From Flavihumibacter fluminis (GTDB lineage: Bacteria > Bacteroidota > Bacteroidia > Chitinophagales > Chitinophagaceae): DNA of 64,000 nt. Below, one piece after another: positions 1,205 through 60,443 of the stretch (position 1 is its first letter; each line of letters begins with the position of its first letter). Position numbers and translations under genes: made by a program. The stretch spans positions 62,001-126,000 of the forward strand of contig NZ_JAKEVY010000001.1 of NCBI RefSeq assembly GCF_021491375.1, in the 5' to 3' direction. The notes under the pieces were generated by a model. The model worked only from the letters and a program-made list of their open reading frames with translations. It had not been told where the DNA came from and searched no databases.

Positions 1205-1284
1205 GGAAGATGTGAGATGTGAGACGTCAGACGTGAAAAGTGAAAAGTGAACGGTGAAAGATTGTGAAAGGAAAAAAGTGAAAA
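1201..1284 (+). repeat. Heptad repeat array (GTGARAN), plus orientation
   Basis: About ten copies of a degenerate 7-base unit (GTGAGAT, GTGAGAC, GTCAGAC, GTGAAAA, GTGAAAG) run directly from the TGA stop of the ROK gene, which lies inside the first unit. Two short irregular insertions interrupt the 7-base register. A mirror array lies at 1529-1593, with a hairpin terminator between them. Confidence 0.85.
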
Positions 1285-1528: not shown

Positions 1529-1593
1529 TTCTCACATCTCACATCTCACGTTTCACCTTTCACCATTTTCACCTTTCACTTCTCACCTTTCAC
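1529..1593 (-). repeat. Heptad repeat array (GTGARAN), minus orientation
   Basis: Seen on the plus strand as ATCTCAC, GTTTCAC, CTTTCAC and TTCTCAC units, nine in all, one of them 9 bases long. It is the inverted partner of the array at 1201-1284. The right end runs into the coding sequence of the next minus-strand gene, whose final codons and TGA stop (1576-1578) are made of repeat units. Confidence 0.85.
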
Positions 1594-2619
1594 CTTCCAT
1601 ACCATCGCTGCCGGTACTGCCCGTTGACCCTCTTTATCGGATGGCCGGATGGTTTCCTTTCCGTTGACCAGCATACAGGAACTACCGCCTCCATCCAGGT
1701 TGAGCGCTTCCATACAGCCCAATTGAACAAGAATTGCTGCTGTTTCGGTAAGGGTGGCACCTGCTGCAATACCAGGATTTCTGCCCTCGATGACCAGCAC
1801 AATTAGTTTGCCTTCTTTTGTATAACCAATAGCTGTTCGGGGATGAGCATCGTTGATTGCATTTCCGGCAAATTTTCGCTCCTGGTTATTGGTAATGTTT
1901 ATTGTGCTGTTTTGAACCAGCACAGGGCCTCCTCCAATTACCGTTTGCATTTTCCATCGGTGGAGTTGAGTACTGAATGAAGAATGATTGACAATGGTGG
2001 TTGAGCTTTTCGCATTGGTCAATAAAAATGTAGTACTGCTATCTTTGATTAATGGAGGAGCCCATTGCGTCGCATATGGTTTTCGTTTGTTCTTCGCTGT
2101 GAAAGTCCAGGCAACGTCCATTTCTCCTTTCTTATTAATTCCAAGCGCACTTACAAATGGATGATAGTATAACCCGCTGTCAACTCCCCTGCCTGCTATG
2201 GTATGCTGATTATAAGCCAGCAATCTGCCCCTATTAACAATAATGTTCAGGTTCAGATTGTCTTTAAAGGAAAAGAAACTGGTATTTACGACGAGTACCG
2301 GATGATTGTTTTTCTCATAAAACCCGGCCGGACTGAGCCGCCGGTTTTGGGTGGTATCATGCTCAATCTGCAATATACCGGAACGTGGATCAGCAATCAC
2401 ATAAAATGCACGGAAGGGTTTGTTCTGATACATCCCTTCAAATGAATATACGTCCATACCAGGTGGTAATGGACCGAAATCAGATGTCCTGTTTTGCCAG
2501 TTAATCGAGCTATTGTTTTGGGAATCAGTATCACTTGTAATACTACTTACATCCTGGGCATTGGCAGTGAATGGAAAAAATAAAAGGCCGGTTAAGGCCT
2601 TTAAAAAAATATTACTCAT
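1576..2619 (-). CDS. Secreted phosphodiester glycosidase-like protein (NAGPA/DUF2233)
   Basis: 347 aa with a Sec signal peptide (MSNIFLKALTGLLFFPFTANAQ region). The C-terminal half carries the motif LNLDGGGSSCMLVNG, the hallmark of the NAGPA/DUF2233 fold, which in characterised members cleaves GlcNAc from phosphodiesters. Also present are an ATNPRTAIG-like segment (AHPRTAIGYT) and VIEGRNPG, typical of this family. Likely periplasmic or surface-exposed; a role in exopolysaccharide or phosphodiester sugar turnover is inferred. The last residues (KVKGEK) are encoded by the heptad array, so this C-terminus is probably not functionally constrained. Confidence 0.8.
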   Translation of the reverse strand: MSNIFLKALTGLLFFPFTANAQDVSSITSDTDSQNNSSINWQNRTSDFGPLPPGMDVYSFEGMYQNKPFRAFYVIADPRSGILQIEHDTTQNRRLSPAGFYEKNNHPVLVVNTSFFSFKDNLNLNIIVNRGRLLAYNQHTIAGRGVDSGLYYHPFVSALGINKKGEMDVAWTFTAKNKRKPYATQWAPPLIKDSSTTFLLTNAKSSTTIVNHSSFSTQLHRWKMQTVIGGGPVLVQNSTINITNNQERKFAGNAINDAHPRTAIGYTKEGKLIVLVIEGRNPGIAAGATLTETAAILVQLGCMEALNLDGGGSSCMLVNGKETIRPSDKEGQRAVPAAMVWKVKGEK

Positions 2620-18382: not shown

Positions 18383-18447
18383 GGTAAACTTATTTTAGTG
18401 ATGAAGCAAAGAAAAGAGGGGGTTGTGACAACAGTATGTCAGGAGAA

Positions 18448-18499
18448 GTGAAAGGTGAAAGGTGAAAAGTGAAAAATAGTGAATGGTGAGAAGTGAAAA
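18448..18499 (+). repeat. Heptad repeat array (GTGARAN), unpaired
   Basis: Seven units (GTGAAAG, GTGAAAA, GTGAATG, GTGAGAA) in exact 7-base register except for one 3-base insertion. It abuts a hairpin terminator (18500-18519). There is no inverted partner: the flanking genes, tRNA-Pro and DinB, are both on the minus strand. Confidence 0.85.
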
Positions 18500-39157: not shown

Positions 39158-39185
39158 GTGAGACGTGAGATGTGAGACGTGAAAA
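39158..39185 (+). repeat. Short heptad array (four units), unpaired
   Basis: GTGAGAC, GTGAGAT, GTGAGAC, GTGAAAA in perfect register, immediately right of the hairpin at 39121-39156. Unlike the other arrays it does not touch a stop codon (the neighbouring stop is TAA at 39212) and points away from the hairpin. Confidence 0.8.
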
Positions 39186-50799: not shown

Positions 50800-51675
50800 A
50801 TGGAAGAAACCCGAGAAATATCAGCCCTTTTTCATCTCATTGATGACCCCGATATCGAGGTGTTTTCGACAGTGAGCGACCGGATTATCTCACTTGGAAC
50901 CAATATTATTCCAAACCTGGAACATTTGTGGGAAACTACTCCTGATGAGGCTGTTCAGGAGCGGATTGAAATGCTTATTCATCGTCTGCACTATTGTGAG
51001 TTAACCAATGATTTTCAACGATGGAAAGCACAACCTGCTCCTGATCTGCTGGGTGGAGCCTTATTGGTTTGTAAATTTCAATATCCGGATCTTAATGTCA
51101 GTGCTATTCTGCAGGATATTGAAAAAATGCGTCGTAATATCTGGTTGGAGCTGAATAATTACCTAACACCGCTGGAACAAACCAATGTACTCACCACTAT
51201 TCTCTATAATTATTATCACCTGAAGGGGTCTGAGATCAATTATTCCGAACCGCATGATTTTCTATTAAATAAAGTCCTGGAAACCAAAAAAGGAAATGCC
51301 ATTAGCAACGGTATCTTATACCTGGTATTATGTGATTTACTGGATATTCCTATACGGGCGGTTCCCATCCCCCGGCAGTTTATCCTCGCCTATTTTGATA
51401 TGGAACCGGGTGTATGGCAGGAACCTGCTTCTAACCCGATGCATCAAATTCAATTCTACATTGATCCCATGAGCGGCCAGGTGTTTACACAAAAGGATGT
51501 GGATACCTATTTCAAGCGGATATCAGTTCCGCCTACGGCTTCCTTCTTCAAACCAATGAATACCATCCGCATCATTCAGCATTTATTGGAAGAATTCTCA
51601 CGTTGCTTTGAGTCTGATAAAGATGGATATAAACAGGAGGAACTGATGAAATTGGCGCAGCTGTTGGAGACGTGA
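50800..51675 (+). CDS. SirB1/transglutaminase-like family protein
   Basis: 291 aa. N-terminal helical repeats (~1-75), then the SirB1-type transglutaminase-like core (GNAISNGILYLVLCDLLDIPIRAVPIPRQFILAYFD; FYIDPMSGQVFTQKDV). The position of the catalytic Cys is Ile/Ser and the core His position in PxHF is Gln (PRQF), so protease or transglutaminase activity is unlikely. Function unknown. The TGA stop lies in the first unit of a heptad array. Confidence 0.82.
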   Translation: MEETREISALFHLIDDPDIEVFSTVSDRIISLGTNIIPNLEHLWETTPDEAVQERIEMLIHRLHYCELTNDFQRWKAQPAPDLLGGALLVCKFQYPDLNVSAILQDIEKMRRNIWLELNNYLTPLEQTNVLTTILYNYYHLKGSEINYSEPHDFLLNKVLETKKGNAISNGILYLVLCDLLDIPIRAVPIPRQFILAYFDMEPGVWQEPASNPMHQIQFYIDPMSGQVFTQKDVDTYFKRISVPPTASFFKPMNTIRIIQHLLEEFSRCFESDKDGYKQEELMKLAQLLET

Positions 51676-51748
51676 GATGTCAGACGTCATATGTGAGACG
51701 TGAGAAGGGAGACAGGAGAAGGGAGACGGAAGACGGAAGACGGGGAAG
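51672..51748 (+). repeat. Heptad repeat array, 11 perfect-register units
   Basis: Eleven consecutive 7-base units without a single indel, starting with GTGAGAT, which contains the TGA stop of the SirB1-like gene. Units drift along the array from GTGAGAC through GGGAGAC to GGAAGAC. Mirror array at 51819-51897. Confidence 0.92.
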
Positions 51749-51773
51749 TTTAAGGATCAAAATATAAAATGGA

Positions 51774-51798
51774 AAAACCCGCATTTCTGCGGGCTTTT
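51774..51798. terminator. Hairpin terminator between the two arrays
   Basis: CCCGCA/TGCGGG stem with a TTTC loop, extended by A4 on the left and T4 on the right, so it can work in both directions for the convergent pair. Confidence 0.85.
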
Positions 51799-51818
51799 AT
51801 TTTAGAGCTTTGTTTTAC

Positions 51819-51897
51819 TTCTCACTTTTCACGTTTCACTTTTCACTTTTCACTTCTCACGTTTCACCTTTCACGTCTGACGTCTCACGTTCCTCAC
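51819..51897 (-). repeat. Heptad repeat array, minus orientation
   Basis: Ten 7-base units (TTTTCAC, GTTTCAC, CTTTCAC, GTCTGAC, GTCTCAC on the plus strand) plus one 9-base unit. The last unit contains the TGA stop of the minus-strand Gfo/Idh gene (51894-51896). Inverted partner of 51672-51748. Confidence 0.92.
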
Positions 51898-53315
51898 AGT
51901 TCCCAGCCCTTCCTTCTTTCACGTTTCACGAACTGGTTGGCTTCTTCGAAATTGGTGATTTTCATATTCTTAGCATCCCATAACAATTTCTTACGGCCCA
52001 GGTATTTATCGTTCCAGCCTTTCAGGTTGGGATTTTTCATCATCCAGCTGCGAATCGCCAGGTTACCAATAAGGATGCTTTCCGTAAAGGGACCTGCATA
52101 TTCAAACGGAGAACTGGTTTTGCCTTTGCCATGACCTGCGATACAAGCATATACCCATTGCGCATAATGTCCTTCTGGTACTCTTGCGATGGTTGGCGCT
52201 GGCAGGCTTTCCTGCATTTTGGTTGTTGGCAACAAACGTGGATTTTCACCATAACAATCTGCCAATAGTTTTCCTTTGGTTCCCTCAAAGAGGATTCCAC
52301 CATCCCAGTTGCCAAATGCTTCTCCCGGCAACAATTCATCCGGACGGTTCGGTAGCAGGCCACCATCGTACCAGGAAATTTTAATATTACCTTTTCCATC
52401 CGTTCTGGGGTAATCCAGGTGAATAATAGAGGATGGAGGACATCCATCAGGATTGGAGCTTTCAACCCACATATCCTGCCAGATATTGGCAACACTGCAC
52501 TCTACTGAACTTGGATAAAGAATGGGCAATATCCGGAATGCCGGATCTAGAATATGACAGGCCATGTCACCCAGTGCACCTGTTCCGAAAGCCCACCAGC
52601 CTCTCCAGTTAAAGGGCAGATATGCAGGATTGTAATCTATATGCTGGGCAGGTCCAAGCCAGAGATCCCAATTTAGTTCTTTTGGAATCTCATGTTTACC
52701 GGAAGGTGTAGGAATACCTTGTGGCCAAACGGGACGATTGGTCCAGGCATGTACAGTATGAACATCTCCAATCATGCCCGCGTCAATCAGTTCTTTTGCC
52801 CTGCGAACACCATCGCCACTTCCCCCCTGGTTTCCCATTTGGGTTACAACCTTGTATTTTTTGGCAGCTTCGGTAAGTAAACGGGCTTCATAAATATCGT
52901 GGGTCAGTGGTTTCTGTGTATAAACATGCTTTCCTAACTGCATCGCTGCAAGGGTAGCATTGGCATGTGTATGGTCGGGAGTAGAAATAGAAACCGCATC
53001 GATCTGGTTCTTGTGTTTTTCCAGCATGTCCCGGAAATCCTTGTAATAAGGAGCTTTGGGATGTGCCTGGCGTGATTTGGCCGCTGCTCTGTCATCCACA
53101 TCGCAGAGCGCAACAATATTTACTTTGCCGGTTTTATAAAACTCTGCAAGGTCGCTGGTGCCTTTACCTCCGGCACCAATTCCGGCAACATTCAGTGTGT
53201 CGCTGGGCGCAACAAAGCCTTTTCCTAAAACATGGCGGGGTACAATAAAAAAACCTGCGGCCGCGGCAGTTGAGTTCCGAAGGAATTTTCTACGCGATGG
53301 CGATAAACGGGGCAT
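51894..53315 (-). CDS. Gfo/Idh/MocA family oxidoreductase, Tat-exported
   Basis: ~473 aa. The start MPRLSPSRRKFLRNSTAAAAGF (53315) gives a twin-arginine signal (SRRKFLRNS) and is preferred to the frame extending to 53393. NAD-binding core VAGIGAGGKGTSDLAEF, catalytic-region QKPLTHDIYEARLL (usual EKP), HTVHAWTNRPVWPQG and a C-terminal GPFTESILIGNLAIRSW. Periplasmic oxidoreductases of this type in Bacteroidota act on sugars or their derivatives; the substrate is unknown. Confidence 0.9.
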   Translation of the reverse strand: MPRLSPSRRKFLRNSTAAAAGFFIVPRHVLGKGFVAPSDTLNVAGIGAGGKGTSDLAEFYKTGKVNIVALCDVDDRAAAKSRQAHPKAPYYKDFRDMLEKHKNQIDAVSISTPDHTHANATLAAMQLGKHVYTQKPLTHDIYEARLLTEAAKKYKVVTQMGNQGGSGDGVRRAKELIDAGMIGDVHTVHAWTNRPVWPQGIPTPSGKHEIPKELNWDLWLGPAQHIDYNPAYLPFNWRGWWAFGTGALGDMACHILDPAFRILPILYPSSVECSVANIWQDMWVESSNPDGCPPSSIIHLDYPRTDGKGNIKISWYDGGLLPNRPDELLPGEAFGNWDGGILFEGTKGKLLADCYGENPRLLPTTKMQESLPAPTIARVPEGHYAQWVYACIAGHGKGKTSSPFEYAGPFTESILIGNLAIRSWMMKNPNLKGWNDKYLGRKKLLWDAKNMKITNFEEANQFVKRERRKGWEL

Positions 53316-53429
53316 AATTACAATCGGTTTGATAAAAATTAATAGATGCCTGAATTTACGGTAGGTTTGTTTACCGATTGCGCATTGCATCAAAAAAAAT
53401 CTATCATTTTGCGTTAATATCTTGGAAAT

Positions 53430-58117: not shown

Positions 58118-58909
58118 ATGCAATTGCCCCTGATACTGGCAATTATTTTGCCATTTTTTCCACGTGCTGATAAACTTAGTTCAATTGAATCCATTGCTGT
58201 TCCGGAGGGATTTGCCAGGCCGGTTGCTGCAAGAGGTAGCTATACAGACTTTCTACGCAAACTCGCATTAAAGGAAAACAAGACGGTTTATTACTATACC
58301 GGTCAGCCCAAGCCAAACCAGCAGGCTGCTTATGCAGTGCTGGACATACCAGTTCGGAACAATTCCCTGTTACAATGCGCGGATGCAGTTATGCTCATCC
58401 GGGCGACCTGGTTGTTTGACCAGAAGAAATATGAACAGATTCATTTCCTAGCAACCGACGGCACCTGGTTGAACTATATTGAATGGTGCAAGGGTGTTCG
58501 ATATGTACTGAAGGGCAAAAAATTACTAACGGTAAGGCGTAGTGCTCAATCAGTTTCACCGGAATATCGGTCAAACCTGGATCGATTTCTTCAGCAGGTG
58601 TTTGCCTATTGTGGTACAGCTTCTCTTTCAAGGCAAATGAAACGAAAGTCACCCAACTCAAGTCCTGAAACGGGTGACGTATTTCTTCAACCCGGTCATC
58701 CAGGCCATGTAATGCTGGTTGTTGACATGGCAAAGAATGCAAAAGGAGAAGCCGTATTTATCCTGCTGCAGGGTTTCATGCCGGCTCAGGATATTCATCT
58801 GGTTAAATCCGTCCAAACACATTACCCGCAACCCTGGCAGCGCTTTACAGGAGGCAGCTTTCAGACGCCTCAATGGAATTTTCCGGCAGGCAGTCTGTAC
58901 CAGTGGTAA
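58118..58909 (+). CDS. DUF4846 family protein
   Basis: 263 aa. Weak N-terminal signal peptide (LPLILAIILPFFP). YRSNLDRFLQQVFAYCGTASL, GDVFLQPGHPGHVMLVVDMA and LLQGFMPAQDIHLVK are the DUF4846 signatures; the GHPGH..V segment suggests a hydrolase-like His pair. Unknown function, common in Bacteroidota and other phyla. Divergent from the response regulator gene. Confidence 0.9.
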   Translation: MQLPLILAIILPFFPRADKLSSIESIAVPEGFARPVAARGSYTDFLRKLALKENKTVYYYTGQPKPNQQAAYAVLDIPVRNNSLLQCADAVMLIRATWLFDQKKYEQIHFLATDGTWLNYIEWCKGVRYVLKGKKLLTVRRSAQSVSPEYRSNLDRFLQQVFAYCGTASLSRQMKRKSPNSSPETGDVFLQPGHPGHVMLVVDMAKNAKGEAVFILLQGFMPAQDIHLVKSVQTHYPQPWQRFTGGSFQTPQWNFPAGSLYQW

Positions 58910-59017: not shown

Positions 59018-59158
59018 ATGAACAGACTACGTCACCCTTTGAAAAACACCCGCGAGATCAGCGTGTGGCAATTGACAACCAAACTTGTTTTATTGGCAGG
59101 CGTTTTAATGGCCTATTCGTATTGCTTCCTGCTAACGGTGGGAAGTATGTTAAAGTGA
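59018..59158 (+). CDS. Small membrane protein, 46 aa
   Basis: ATG to TGA, 46 codons. Basic N-terminus (MNRLRHPLKNTREISVW), then one clear membrane helix (residues ~22-42, LVLLAGVLMAYSYCFLLTV) and a short tail. It has its own consensus promoter, and the stop codon lies in the first unit of a heptad array followed by a strong terminator, so it is a complete transcription unit. Orientation is likely N-in. Not recognised as a known family. Confidence 0.65.
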   Translation: MNRLRHPLKNTREISVWQLTTKLVLLAGVLMAYSYCFLLTVGSMLK

Positions 59159-59217
59159 GACGTCAGACGTGAGACGTCAGACGTGAGACGTCAGATATGA
59201 AATGTGAGAAGTGAAAG
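59155..59217 (+). repeat. Heptad repeat array, nine perfect-register units
   Basis: GTGAGAC and GTCAGAC alternate three times, then GTGAGAA and GTGAAAG types; no indel. The first unit contains the TGA stop of the 46-aa gene. Mirror array at 59288-59343. Confidence 0.92.
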
Positions 59218-59287: not shown

Positions 59288-59343
59288 GTTTCACGTCTCA
59301 CATCTGACGTTTCAACTTTCACCTTTCACCTTTCACCTTTCAC
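59288..59343 (-). repeat. Heptad repeat array, eight perfect-register units
   Basis: Plus-strand units GTTTCAC, GTCTCAC, ATCTGAC and four CTTTCAC. The last contains the TGA stop of pdhB (59340-59342). Inverted partner of 59155-59217. Confidence 0.92.
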
Positions 59344-60329
59344 TTCTTCATATACATCACTTCCTTTACCAGCTTTACTGTTCTTGCTACATCGGGTAAA
59401 GCTGCTGCTACCAGGTTGGGTGCATAGTGCAACGGTGCATCTGCAGCTGTTATCCGGCGAATCGGTGCATCGAGGTAATCAAATCCTTCTTTTTGGATCC
59501 GGTAGGAAATTTCAGAAGAGATTGATGCGAATGGCCACTGTTCTTCAACGATTACCAGACGATTGGTCTTCTTTACACTTTCAAGGATGGTCATCCAGTC
59601 GAGCGGTCGAATGGTTCTAAGGTCAATCACTTCCGCATTTACGCCTTCTTTTTCCAGTTCAGCAGCTGCTCCTAAGGCAACTTTCATCATTTTATTGAAA
59701 GAAACAATGGTAACATCGGATCCTGCTTTTTTTACATCTGCTTTACCAAGAGGGATATAGTATTCTTCTTCCGGAACTTCAGACTTATCACCGTACATCA
59801 ATTCGGATTCCATGAAAATCACGGGATCCTCTTCGTAACGGATGGCTTGCTTCAACAATCCCTTTGCATCATATCCATTAGACGGAGATACTACTTTGAT
59901 ACCCGGAATATTGGCATAATAACTTTCAAATGCAGTAGAGTGCTGGGCTCCTAATTGTCCGGCTGAACCATTGGGTCCACGAAAAACAATCGGGCAGGAA
60001 ACCTGTCCGCCACTCATCGCAAGCATTTTAGAAGCAGTATTCAGGATCTGGTCGAGTGCCAGAACAGCGAAGTTCCAGGTCATAAATTCAACAATGGGAC
60101 GCAGGCCATTCTGAGCTGCACCTACTGCAACTGCAGCAAATCCAAGTTCAGAAATAGGCGTATCGATCACTCGTTTTTCACCAAATTCATCGAGCATACC
60201 CTGGCTTACTTTGTAGGCTCCATTGTATTCAGCCACTTCCTCTCCCATCAGGAATACGCGATCATCGCGACGGAACTCTTCATTCATTGCTTCGCGCAGC
60301 GCTTCTCTAAATGCAATTGATCTTGCCAT
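59340..60329 (-). CDS. pdhB: Pyruvate dehydrogenase E1 component, beta subunit
   Basis: 329 aa when started at MARSIAFREALREAMNEEF (60329); the frame to 60431 crosses the promoter and terminator and is not coding. FLMGEEVAEYNGAYKVSQGML, RVIDTPISELGFAAVAVGAA, FRGPNGSAGQLGAQHS and EEQWPFASISSEISY are E1-beta motifs. With E1-alpha it decarboxylates pyruvate for acetyl-CoA. No pdhA, E2 or E3 gene is adjacent, so the subunit is expressed from its own promoter here. Confidence 0.95.
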   Translation of the reverse strand: MARSIAFREALREAMNEEFRRDDRVFLMGEEVAEYNGAYKVSQGMLDEFGEKRVIDTPISELGFAAVAVGAAQNGLRPIVEFMTWNFAVLALDQILNTASKMLAMSGGQVSCPIVFRGPNGSAGQLGAQHSTAFESYYANIPGIKVVSPSNGYDAKGLLKQAIRYEEDPVIFMESELMYGDKSEVPEEEYYIPLGKADVKKAGSDVTIVSFNKMMKVALGAAAELEKEGVNAEVIDLRTIRPLDWMTILESVKKTNRLVIVEEQWPFASISSEISYRIQKEGFDYLDAPIRRITAADAPLHYAPNLVAAALPDVARTVKLVKEVMYMKK

Positions 60330-60352
60330 TCTTTTGTTTTTATAAGGAGTGG

Positions 60353-60383
60353 CAAATTTATTGGTTACACTCCAAATGCGCAA
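60353..60383 (-). promoter_or_regulatory. Promoter of pdhB
   Basis: On the minus strand: TTG (60383-60381), 20-base spacer, TAAATTTG (60360-60353), a perfect TAnnTTTG box, 24 bases upstream of the pdhB ATG. Confidence 0.75.
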
Positions 60384-60402
60384 AAAATCCCCTATAAATG
60401 CC

Positions 60403-60426
60403 AAAAGCCCCGGCGAGGGGGCTTTT
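60403..60426 (-). terminator. Terminator after the S41 protease gene
   Basis: AAAAGCCCC/GGGGCTTTT 9-bp stem, 6-base loop, 18 bases after the protease stop; separates it from the pdhB promoter. Confidence 0.85.
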
Positions 60427-60443
60427 GACAAAACTATTTTTAC

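Follow-up and report, generated by a model that had tools for sequence, protein, structure and literature searches.

Blocks of four 7-base words at gene edges in Flavihumibacter: a shared layout with species-specific words

Intergenic arrays of a degenerate 7-base word occur in the genome of Flavihumibacter fluminis and in other members of its genus, and five properties of these arrays were observed directly: a preferred length of four units, a rule of placement relative to genes, sites that stay fixed while their units are rewritten, words that differ between species, and a division of the word into constrained and free positions. Four heptads (28 bp) form the basic block, behind which further blocks are often stacked. 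The reading favoured here, tentatively and with somewhat less than even confidence, is that of a dispersed four-heptad recognition element at gene edges, which would be read in 7-base steps by a putative co-evolving factor.

Positions refer to the window, that is, the whole stretch of 64,000 nt that was analysed; the genome to which it belongs (G000) comprises 4,710,176 bp in 41 contigs. Eight arrays built on the same word occur in the window, so that arrays are not peculiar to the focal locus between positions 50800 and 53393. The features of the focal locus and the six remaining arrays are as follows.

50800-51675, plus strand: upstream gene, encoding a Transglut_core2 protein, with its TGA stop within the first array unit
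51672-51748, plus strand: left array of 11 heptads, the first of which overlaps the TGA stop (51673-51675) of the upstream gene
51778-51793, no strand assigned: bidirectional intrinsic-terminator-like hairpin CCCGCATTTCTGCGGG with A- and T-tracts, between the arrays and not counted as part of the repeat
51819-51897, minus strand: right array of ten GTSARAN units and one 9-mer, which contains the stop codon (51894-51896) of the facing gene
51894-53393, minus strand: facing gene, encoding a GFO/IDH/MocA oxidoreductase (ORF limits; start uncertain)
1205-1284, plus strand: array beginning directly behind the stop of gene 197-1204
1529-1600, minus strand: facing partner of 1205-1284, overlapping the end of gene 1576-2619
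18441-18499, plus strand: single array between divergent genes
39158-39185, plus strand: single four-unit block between two minus-strand genes
59149-59217, plus strand: array about 240 bp past the end of ORF 58118-58909
59288-59343, minus strand: array that faces 59149-59217 and overlaps the stop codon of ORF 59340-60431

At the focal locus, two arrays of period 7 lie in opposite orientation between convergent genes with a hairpin between them, as a sequence-only reading of this DNA had described, and its count of ten units plus one 9-mer for the right array was likewise confirmed. For the left array, its claim of 11 units in a strict 7-base register holds throughout, but only three of the 11 units fit GTGARAN exactly; one more reads GTCAGAC, and the last six have drifted to words like GGGAGAC or GGAAGAC with the period kept. 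The facing gene has a heptad-like C-terminal stretch, which was scored as gene and not as array because it is also coding in the array-free relative G013. RNA of the focal locus folds with -100.2 kcal/mol (z -10.65), a strength that is expected of any facing pair of arrays, and in an Rfam search of positions 51500-52100 all matches (two microRNA-precursor models, a snoRNA, anti-hemB and RsmY) stayed far below the gathering scores. At the corresponding place in relatives, G004 has left and right arrays that both differ from those of G000, in G008 the same gene is followed by an array and then by an apparently different neighbour, G003 (71% and 83% protein identity) carries a block of another word, GTTTAAG, at 6 bp from the stop codon of the corresponding facing gene, and G013 and G012 have a 1-bp gap and no array. 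The loop of the terminator hairpin is inverted between close species, reading CCCGCATTTCTGCGGG here and CCCGCAGAAATGCGGG in the G004 orthologue (L080).

Five base shuffles of the window gave zero arrays over threshold. In the whole of G000, three consecutive GTGARAN units matched 158 times forward and 164 times in reverse compared with 0 matches for the backwards pattern, and the recurrence across the genome is supported. A contiguous sample of 800 kb (17% of the genome) was analysed in detail and contained 34 arrays in 25 clusters, compared with none in one shuffle; the reversed 800 kb gave six arrays, every one of them at the place of a real array read backwards. A chance origin of the arrays is excluded. 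Among tandem periods of 5 to 12 in the same sample, period 7 accounted for 30 segments and each other period for 0 to 3. Not one of the 34 arrays is located within a gene, which agrees with the earlier view that they are non-coding, and the units were found neither at chance level nor mostly in genes or at 5' ends.

The arrays are placed and oriented with respect to gene edges. Of the two ends of an array, the 5' end is the one closer to a gene in 30/34 cases in G000, 15/18 in G004 and 21/23 in G003, where three further arrays at locus ends were left unscored; this edge rule was not significant in G008 (4/6), G001 (4/8) and G041 (11/17). Sense arrays behind a gene's 3' end make up 23 of the 34 arrays in G000, and 22 of these 23 either overlap the stop codon or are no more than 10 bp away from it, as against a mean of 5.9 and a maximum of 13 in 2000 draws in which the arrays were placed randomly within their own gaps. 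TGA is the stop codon of 17/23 genes with a sense array and of 162/602 genes overall (p 2e-6), and arrays often supply the stop codon of the gene. The other 11 arrays have a gene's 5' end behind them and are antisense to that gene; four of them break the edge rule, and seven obey it at the gene's 5' edge, as do seven antisense arrays in G003. All 16 arrays of G000 in gaps called convergent are sense to the nearer gene.

The 25 clusters divide into 10 convergent, 13 tandem and 2 divergent, where the corresponding shares of intergenic bases are 18, 56 and 26%, and since the gene calls came from a simple caller that missed ORF 58118-58909, one "tandem" cluster is probably convergent. The enrichment between convergent genes that had been anticipated is therefore borne out, and divergent positions are rare. 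What did not hold up is the inverted pair around a terminator as the unit of the element: more than half of the clusters are in tandem gaps, a single array makes up 16 of 25, and terminators are not clearly enriched. Where arrays are paired in G000, they face each other in 9/9 cases; automated pairing gave 8 + 5 + 1 facing pairs, no diverging pair and one pair labelled same-strand, which by its coordinates (C11:567457/567511) is an overlapping facing pair. In gaps of 60-600 bp, terminator-like hairpins were not clearly commoner with arrays than without (convergent 6/10 vs 8/15, tandem 2/11 vs 41/155, divergent 0/2 vs 19/82). Counted within 130 nt, such hairpins lie in front of 10/34 arrays and behind 9/34, compared with 87/500 random intergenic windows. 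A terminator as a component of the element was rejected, as there is no clear enrichment at arrays. The likeness of two arms was 0.62 within the same locus and 0.62 between different loci (14 vs 76 comparisons, p 0.56), and between the arms of one locus the proportion of A-type units is weakly correlated (0.45, p 0.11); copying of one arm from the other by fold-back is thus unsupported, same-locus arms being no more alike than others.

From the lengths of maximal GTSARAN runs in the 800 kb of G000, it is evident that four units are preferred: runs of two, three, four, five, six and seven units numbered 8, 3, 21, 5, 4 and 3, with one each of eight, nine and ten, so that four-unit runs account for 21 of 47 runs of at least two units, and the reversed control had no run longer than two units. 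Similarly, G004 has runs of 2/3/4/7/8 units in numbers of 3/2/15/2/2 (15/24 of four units and none of five or six), G041 has runs of 2/3/4/5/7 units in numbers of 4/2/6/2/1 (6/15), and contiguous stretches of G003 have runs of 2/3/4 units in numbers of 6/4/8 (8/18). The preference is not clear in G008 (runs of 2/4/6/7 units: 6/2/1/1; 2/10 of four units). The figure of 21/25 four-unit arrays for G003 includes loci fetched by the four-unit pattern, and run lengths of the G001 loci and of part of the G003 loci, fetched in the same way, were left out of the claim. Within blocks there is a tendency, seen on few blocks, towards an internal register: the GTC variant of the word is found on units 1/2/3/4 in numbers of 0/10/3/0 (G000, 21 four-unit blocks) and 1/4/1/0 (G004, 15 such blocks), together 1/14/4/0 in 36 blocks; with metagenome-assembled genome (MAG) loci added the count is 1/23/4/0 in 49, but these loci were excluded because their fetch pattern itself has GTC at unit 2. 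Some longer arrays resemble several blocks side by side with small phase shifts between them.

To describe which positions of the word are held constant, middle units lying between two perfect units were counted with no condition on the middle unit itself. In 121 such units of G000, positions 1, 2, 4 and 6 conform in 119, 118, 119 and 120, position 3 is G in 80, C in 38 and A in 3, position 5 is A in 39, G in 81 and T in 1, and position 7 can be any base. The 195 middle units of G000, G004 and G008, with orthologues counted apart, give the same picture. In 47 middle units of G003, the most variable positions are 3 (T in 31) and 7 (G in 31), and every other position conforms in at least 45; in 25 middle units of G001, there is little variation at position 3 (A 21, G 3, T 1), and G predominates at position 7 (22).

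Within the genus, the sites of the arrays are conserved and their sequences are not. G004 and G008 are identical to G000 over 91.8% and 86.9% of aligned positions; G004 has arrays at the same place in 12/12 clusters of the first 400 kb, and G008 in 5/5 anchored clusters, of which one shows just two clear units, the other 7 of 12 being without an anchor. At shared sites, relatives differ in how many units there are, in their order and in their type. The general pattern GTNNRAN repeated four times has matches in 12/15 genomes of the genus and none in G002, G006 and G012. The word itself is GTGARAN in G000, G004, G005, G008 and G014, GTAAGAN in G001, GTNTAAN in G003, and GTTTGAN in G009, G010 and G011, with only 6, 3 and 2 matches respectively. 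The backwards control of the general pattern is nonzero in the GTGARAN genomes (from 6 + 7 in G000 up to 67 + 29 in G008) because words of this type can match backwards. In G014 (96% complete, with abundant GTGARAN blocks) neither the topA nor the Transglut_core2 protein of the window found a match, and in G005 (55% complete) topA found none. As several members of the genus have few or no arrays, the element is dispensable.

Beyond the genus, four-unit GTGARAN matches occur in 25 of a wider sample of 196 genomes, G000 included; in G100 and G131 the backwards control outnumbers these matches. G100 has 114 + 86 matches to the backwards pattern and also carries a near-perfect 97-bp array of AGTGAAG at a gene end (L182 7786-7883). 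Among records from which those near G000 may be missing, an exact 25-base string was present in 18 DNA stretches, from Flavihumibacter cheonanensis, from a Flavihumibacter MAG and from a single MAG of Flavipsychrobacter.

Two comparisons bear on how the blocks spread. In G003, a tail GTTGCTnCCGC stands behind 19/25 arrays and the motif is found in 1/25 upstream flanks; this common tail speaks for spread by copying. In gaps orthologous between G000 and G001, the array gap is longer in G000 in 6/6 cases (medians 135 vs 46.5 bp), whereas array-free gaps of at least 60 bp in G000 differ little from those of G001 (120.5 vs 100.5). Compared with G006, the array gaps of G000 are not longer (medians 230 vs 308, eight gaps). 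At three places in G003 (L119 1528-2425, L174 1161-1798 and 6358-7469), facing blocks enclose 0.6-1.1 kb in which no gene was called; these enclosed pieces carry their own tandem repeats of other sequence, do not match each other beyond their array-side ends, and in one case have a 215-aa open frame.

Several known repeat systems are comparable. The cyanobacterial STRR sequences, which the sequence-only reading had named as the nearest parallel, are tandem heptamers outside genes made of nearly identical copies of one word, and the Flavihumibacter arrays resemble them in being tandem heptamers that lie outside genes. REP/BIME elements are dispersed, extragenic, often downstream of stop codons and present as inverted pairs, each REP being itself a palindrome. 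The Flavihumibacter blocks are likewise dispersed, extragenic, often situated behind stop codons and found in inverted pairs, but they are not palindromic, and the array-rich G000, G003 and G008 have no match to Y1_Tnp. In the genus as a whole, Y1 transposase matches were obtained in 4/15 genomes (above the cut-off in G014 and G007, under it in G010 and G004) and none in G000, G001, G003, G005 (55% complete) and G008. A RAYT transposase as mobiliser was rejected, there being no consistent association with arrays. With regard to features of MITEs, facing arrays are present, cores differ between loci, and no target-site duplication was visible by eye in the comparison with G001.

A closer parallel than STRR is provided by the GGGNATC heptamers, described by Rehm et al. 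(2015; PMC4692102) as GGGAATC repeats in Xanthomonas and GGGGA(C/T)T repeats in Nostoc. According to that description, the heptads are dispersed genome-wide, are mostly intergenic and show a clear preference for four units; the arrays lie closer to the 5' neighbouring ORF whatever its orientation, are under-represented between divergent ORFs, form 70 and 75 facing inverted pairs in two Xanthomonas genomes and few in Nostoc, and occupy mostly shared sites with variable arrays in two Xanthomonas species. The four units are linked there to G-quadruplexes, and the function is stated as still to be elucidated. The Flavihumibacter arrays share with GGGNATC the period of 7 and the dispersed intergenic occurrence (34 in 800 kb, with 0 in genes), the four-unit preference (in G000, G004, stretches of G003 and G041, not clearly in G008), the 5' end nearer the gene (in G000, G004 and G003, not significantly in G008, G001 and G041), the facing inverted pairs, and the same sites with variable arrays in relatives. 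They differ in that GTGARAN, GTAAGAN, GTNTAAN and GTTTGAN are without GGG and lack the G-tracts of quadruplexes, in that the word changes among species of one genus, in the common tail of the G003 blocks, and in belonging to a different phylum. The layout is thus already known from GGGNATC, and what is new are words free of G-tracts that vary within one genus.

The sequence-only reading knew of no such repeats described in Bacteroidota, but direct TAACTGA repeats are reported from Beggiatoaceae, cyanobacteria and five Bacteroidetes (MacGregor, 2015; PMC4679880). As in that report, the Flavihumibacter heptamers are intergenic and patchily distributed and occur in Bacteroidota. TAACTGA is presented there as one fixed word with near variants rare as repeats, and as located for the most part immediately before start codons in the Beggiatoaceae genome that was examined; in contrast, the words described here are variable and are not forward-oriented before start codons, being sense behind 3' ends or, in the remaining 11 cases of G000, antisense to the gene. 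Searches of open-licence PMC texts by terms other than the words themselves found no paper on GTGARAN, GTNTAAN, GTAAGAN or GTTTGAN arrays.

Taken together, the pattern of constraint, the length of the blocks and the change of word under a fixed layout suggest recognition in 7-base steps, four at once. Under the favoured reading, copies of a dispersed 28-bp element would be kept at gene edges with their G-side against the gene, and a putative nucleic-acid-binding factor, perhaps a tetramer or a four-module protein, would read the element in steps of 7 bases while tolerating change at positions 3 and 7 of the word and in G000 also A or G at position 5. A shift in the specificity of this putative factor along a lineage would shift the word of that genome, and copies might spread and be overwritten through copying or gene conversion between loci. 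Such an element would probably act at the level of DNA, marking or shielding the boundary of a coding segment, and this is likelier than an RNA signal because arrays are oriented by the gene edge, whichever way transcription runs. Several points speak against this reading: copying of blocks only would also yield the register and the four-unit mode, the edge rule is weak or absent in G001, G041 and G008 and is broken by four of the 11 arrays at 5' ends in G000, G008 is without a clear four-unit mode, and G002, G006 and G012 are without arrays, the gaps of G006 not being shorter.

It is also possible, at rather less than an even chance, that the arrays belong to a selfish or neutral mobile repeat with heptad ends that enters compact intergenic gaps, in which case gene edges would be what remains beside it, facing pairs would correspond to both of its ends, and copies in sense orientation behind genes would survive by supplying a stop within a few units. 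Such block copying accounts for the G003 tail, the patchy occurrence within the genus and the shorter gaps of G001 nearly as well as a reader does, and the excess of TGA stops in genes with sense arrays and the weak Y1 transposase matches in the array-rich G014 and G004 are consistent with it. Copying alone would hardly yield position-specific constraint, however, and neither a target-site duplication nor a common core was seen; same-locus arms are no more alike than others, Y1/RAYT is without a match in the array-rich G000, G003 and G008, the gaps of G006 are not shorter, and the sites are stable while the sequences change.

A role in RNA, resting on the pairing of arms that the sequence-only reading pointed out, appears improbable. 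The purine arm of an array at convergent 3' ends might pair with the pyrimidine arm of a read-through or antisense RNA, or might aid termination, and the convergent enrichment of clusters, the very stable hairpin formed when one RNA holds both arms, the start of sense arrays at the stop codon and the hairpins in front of ten arrays point in this direction. Pairing of the arms is feasible at the focal locus, but the arms of a locus have no excess likeness, most clusters hold one array only, the terminator enrichment per gap is not clear, and seven arrays each in G000 and G003 obey the edge rule at a 5' edge, antisense to the gene. Loading of a Rho-type factor on the pyrimidine strand, with YC every 7 nt, would be a further conceivable role.

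Simple replication slippage of the heptamer, giving a long simple sequence repeat, is disfavoured and has only a slight chance of being correct. It has been proposed for heptamers in general on the ground that 7 nt suit the polymerase (Mrazek, 2007, as cited in PMC4679880 and PMC4692102), and in its favour period 7 alone stands out and adjacent units tend to be of the same type. The peak at four units in G000 and G004 and the GTC register (unit 2 in 10/13 cases in G000) are not predicted by slippage alone, and one word recurs at many loci of a genome (25 clusters in 17% of G000). Back-up stop codons in all three frames behind a gene are scarcely credible, for although the respective words contain TGA, TAA, TAA and TGA, period 7 rotates the frame and TGA is enriched as the stop of genes with sense arrays, position 3 is among the free ones, with C in 38 of 121 middle units of G000 giving a stop-less GTCARAN, arrays also sit antisense at 5' edges, and the Xanthomonas word GGGAATC is stop-free in every frame; the free position 3 thus also disfavours a stop-codon array as a conserved function.

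Because a layout like that of GGGNATC is met here by words without a G-tract, quadruplexes are unlikely as its cause in Flavihumibacter and perhaps not its cause in Xanthomonas or Nostoc either. The G-quadruplex account, the only explanation proposed for the four-unit preference, is weakened accordingly, and layout becomes separable from sequence, since the same four-unit preference and edge rule are found with different words. On this basis it is conceivable, but in our estimation unlikely, that unrelated phyla (Bacteroidota; Xanthomonas, Nostoc) have one class of gene-edge mark, consisting of four 7-base words pointing outward and a putative four-module reader of drifting specificity, in which the word would change under a constant layout and the four-unit rule would be set by the reader and not by G-quadruplexes. 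The choice between a reader with four 7-base modules and a block-copying element has become a testable question, and the changes of word within Flavihumibacter offer natural experiments in which related genes carry different words.

Arrays of other words were searched for without a pattern in limited stretches of sequence. Beside GTGARAN blocks or alone, the heptads TTATGAA/GTATGAA, GTAAGAA, GTAGGAA and GTTTGAA were seen in G000 (near C11:129257, 172757, 567457 and 608816) and in G004 (C110:491807 and 574895), and one genome may hold several word families. In G034, which carries GTGARNN arrays as well, a GATGACN word forms facing pairs at L192 11313-11370 and L193 16118-16287, where the genes were called divergent. 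Behind blocks of G000 near C11 positions 464585, 476948, 694216 and 701704 lies a related purine-rich stretch resembling GGAAGAGGGAGGAATGGAAGATGG, which is perhaps another repeat family.
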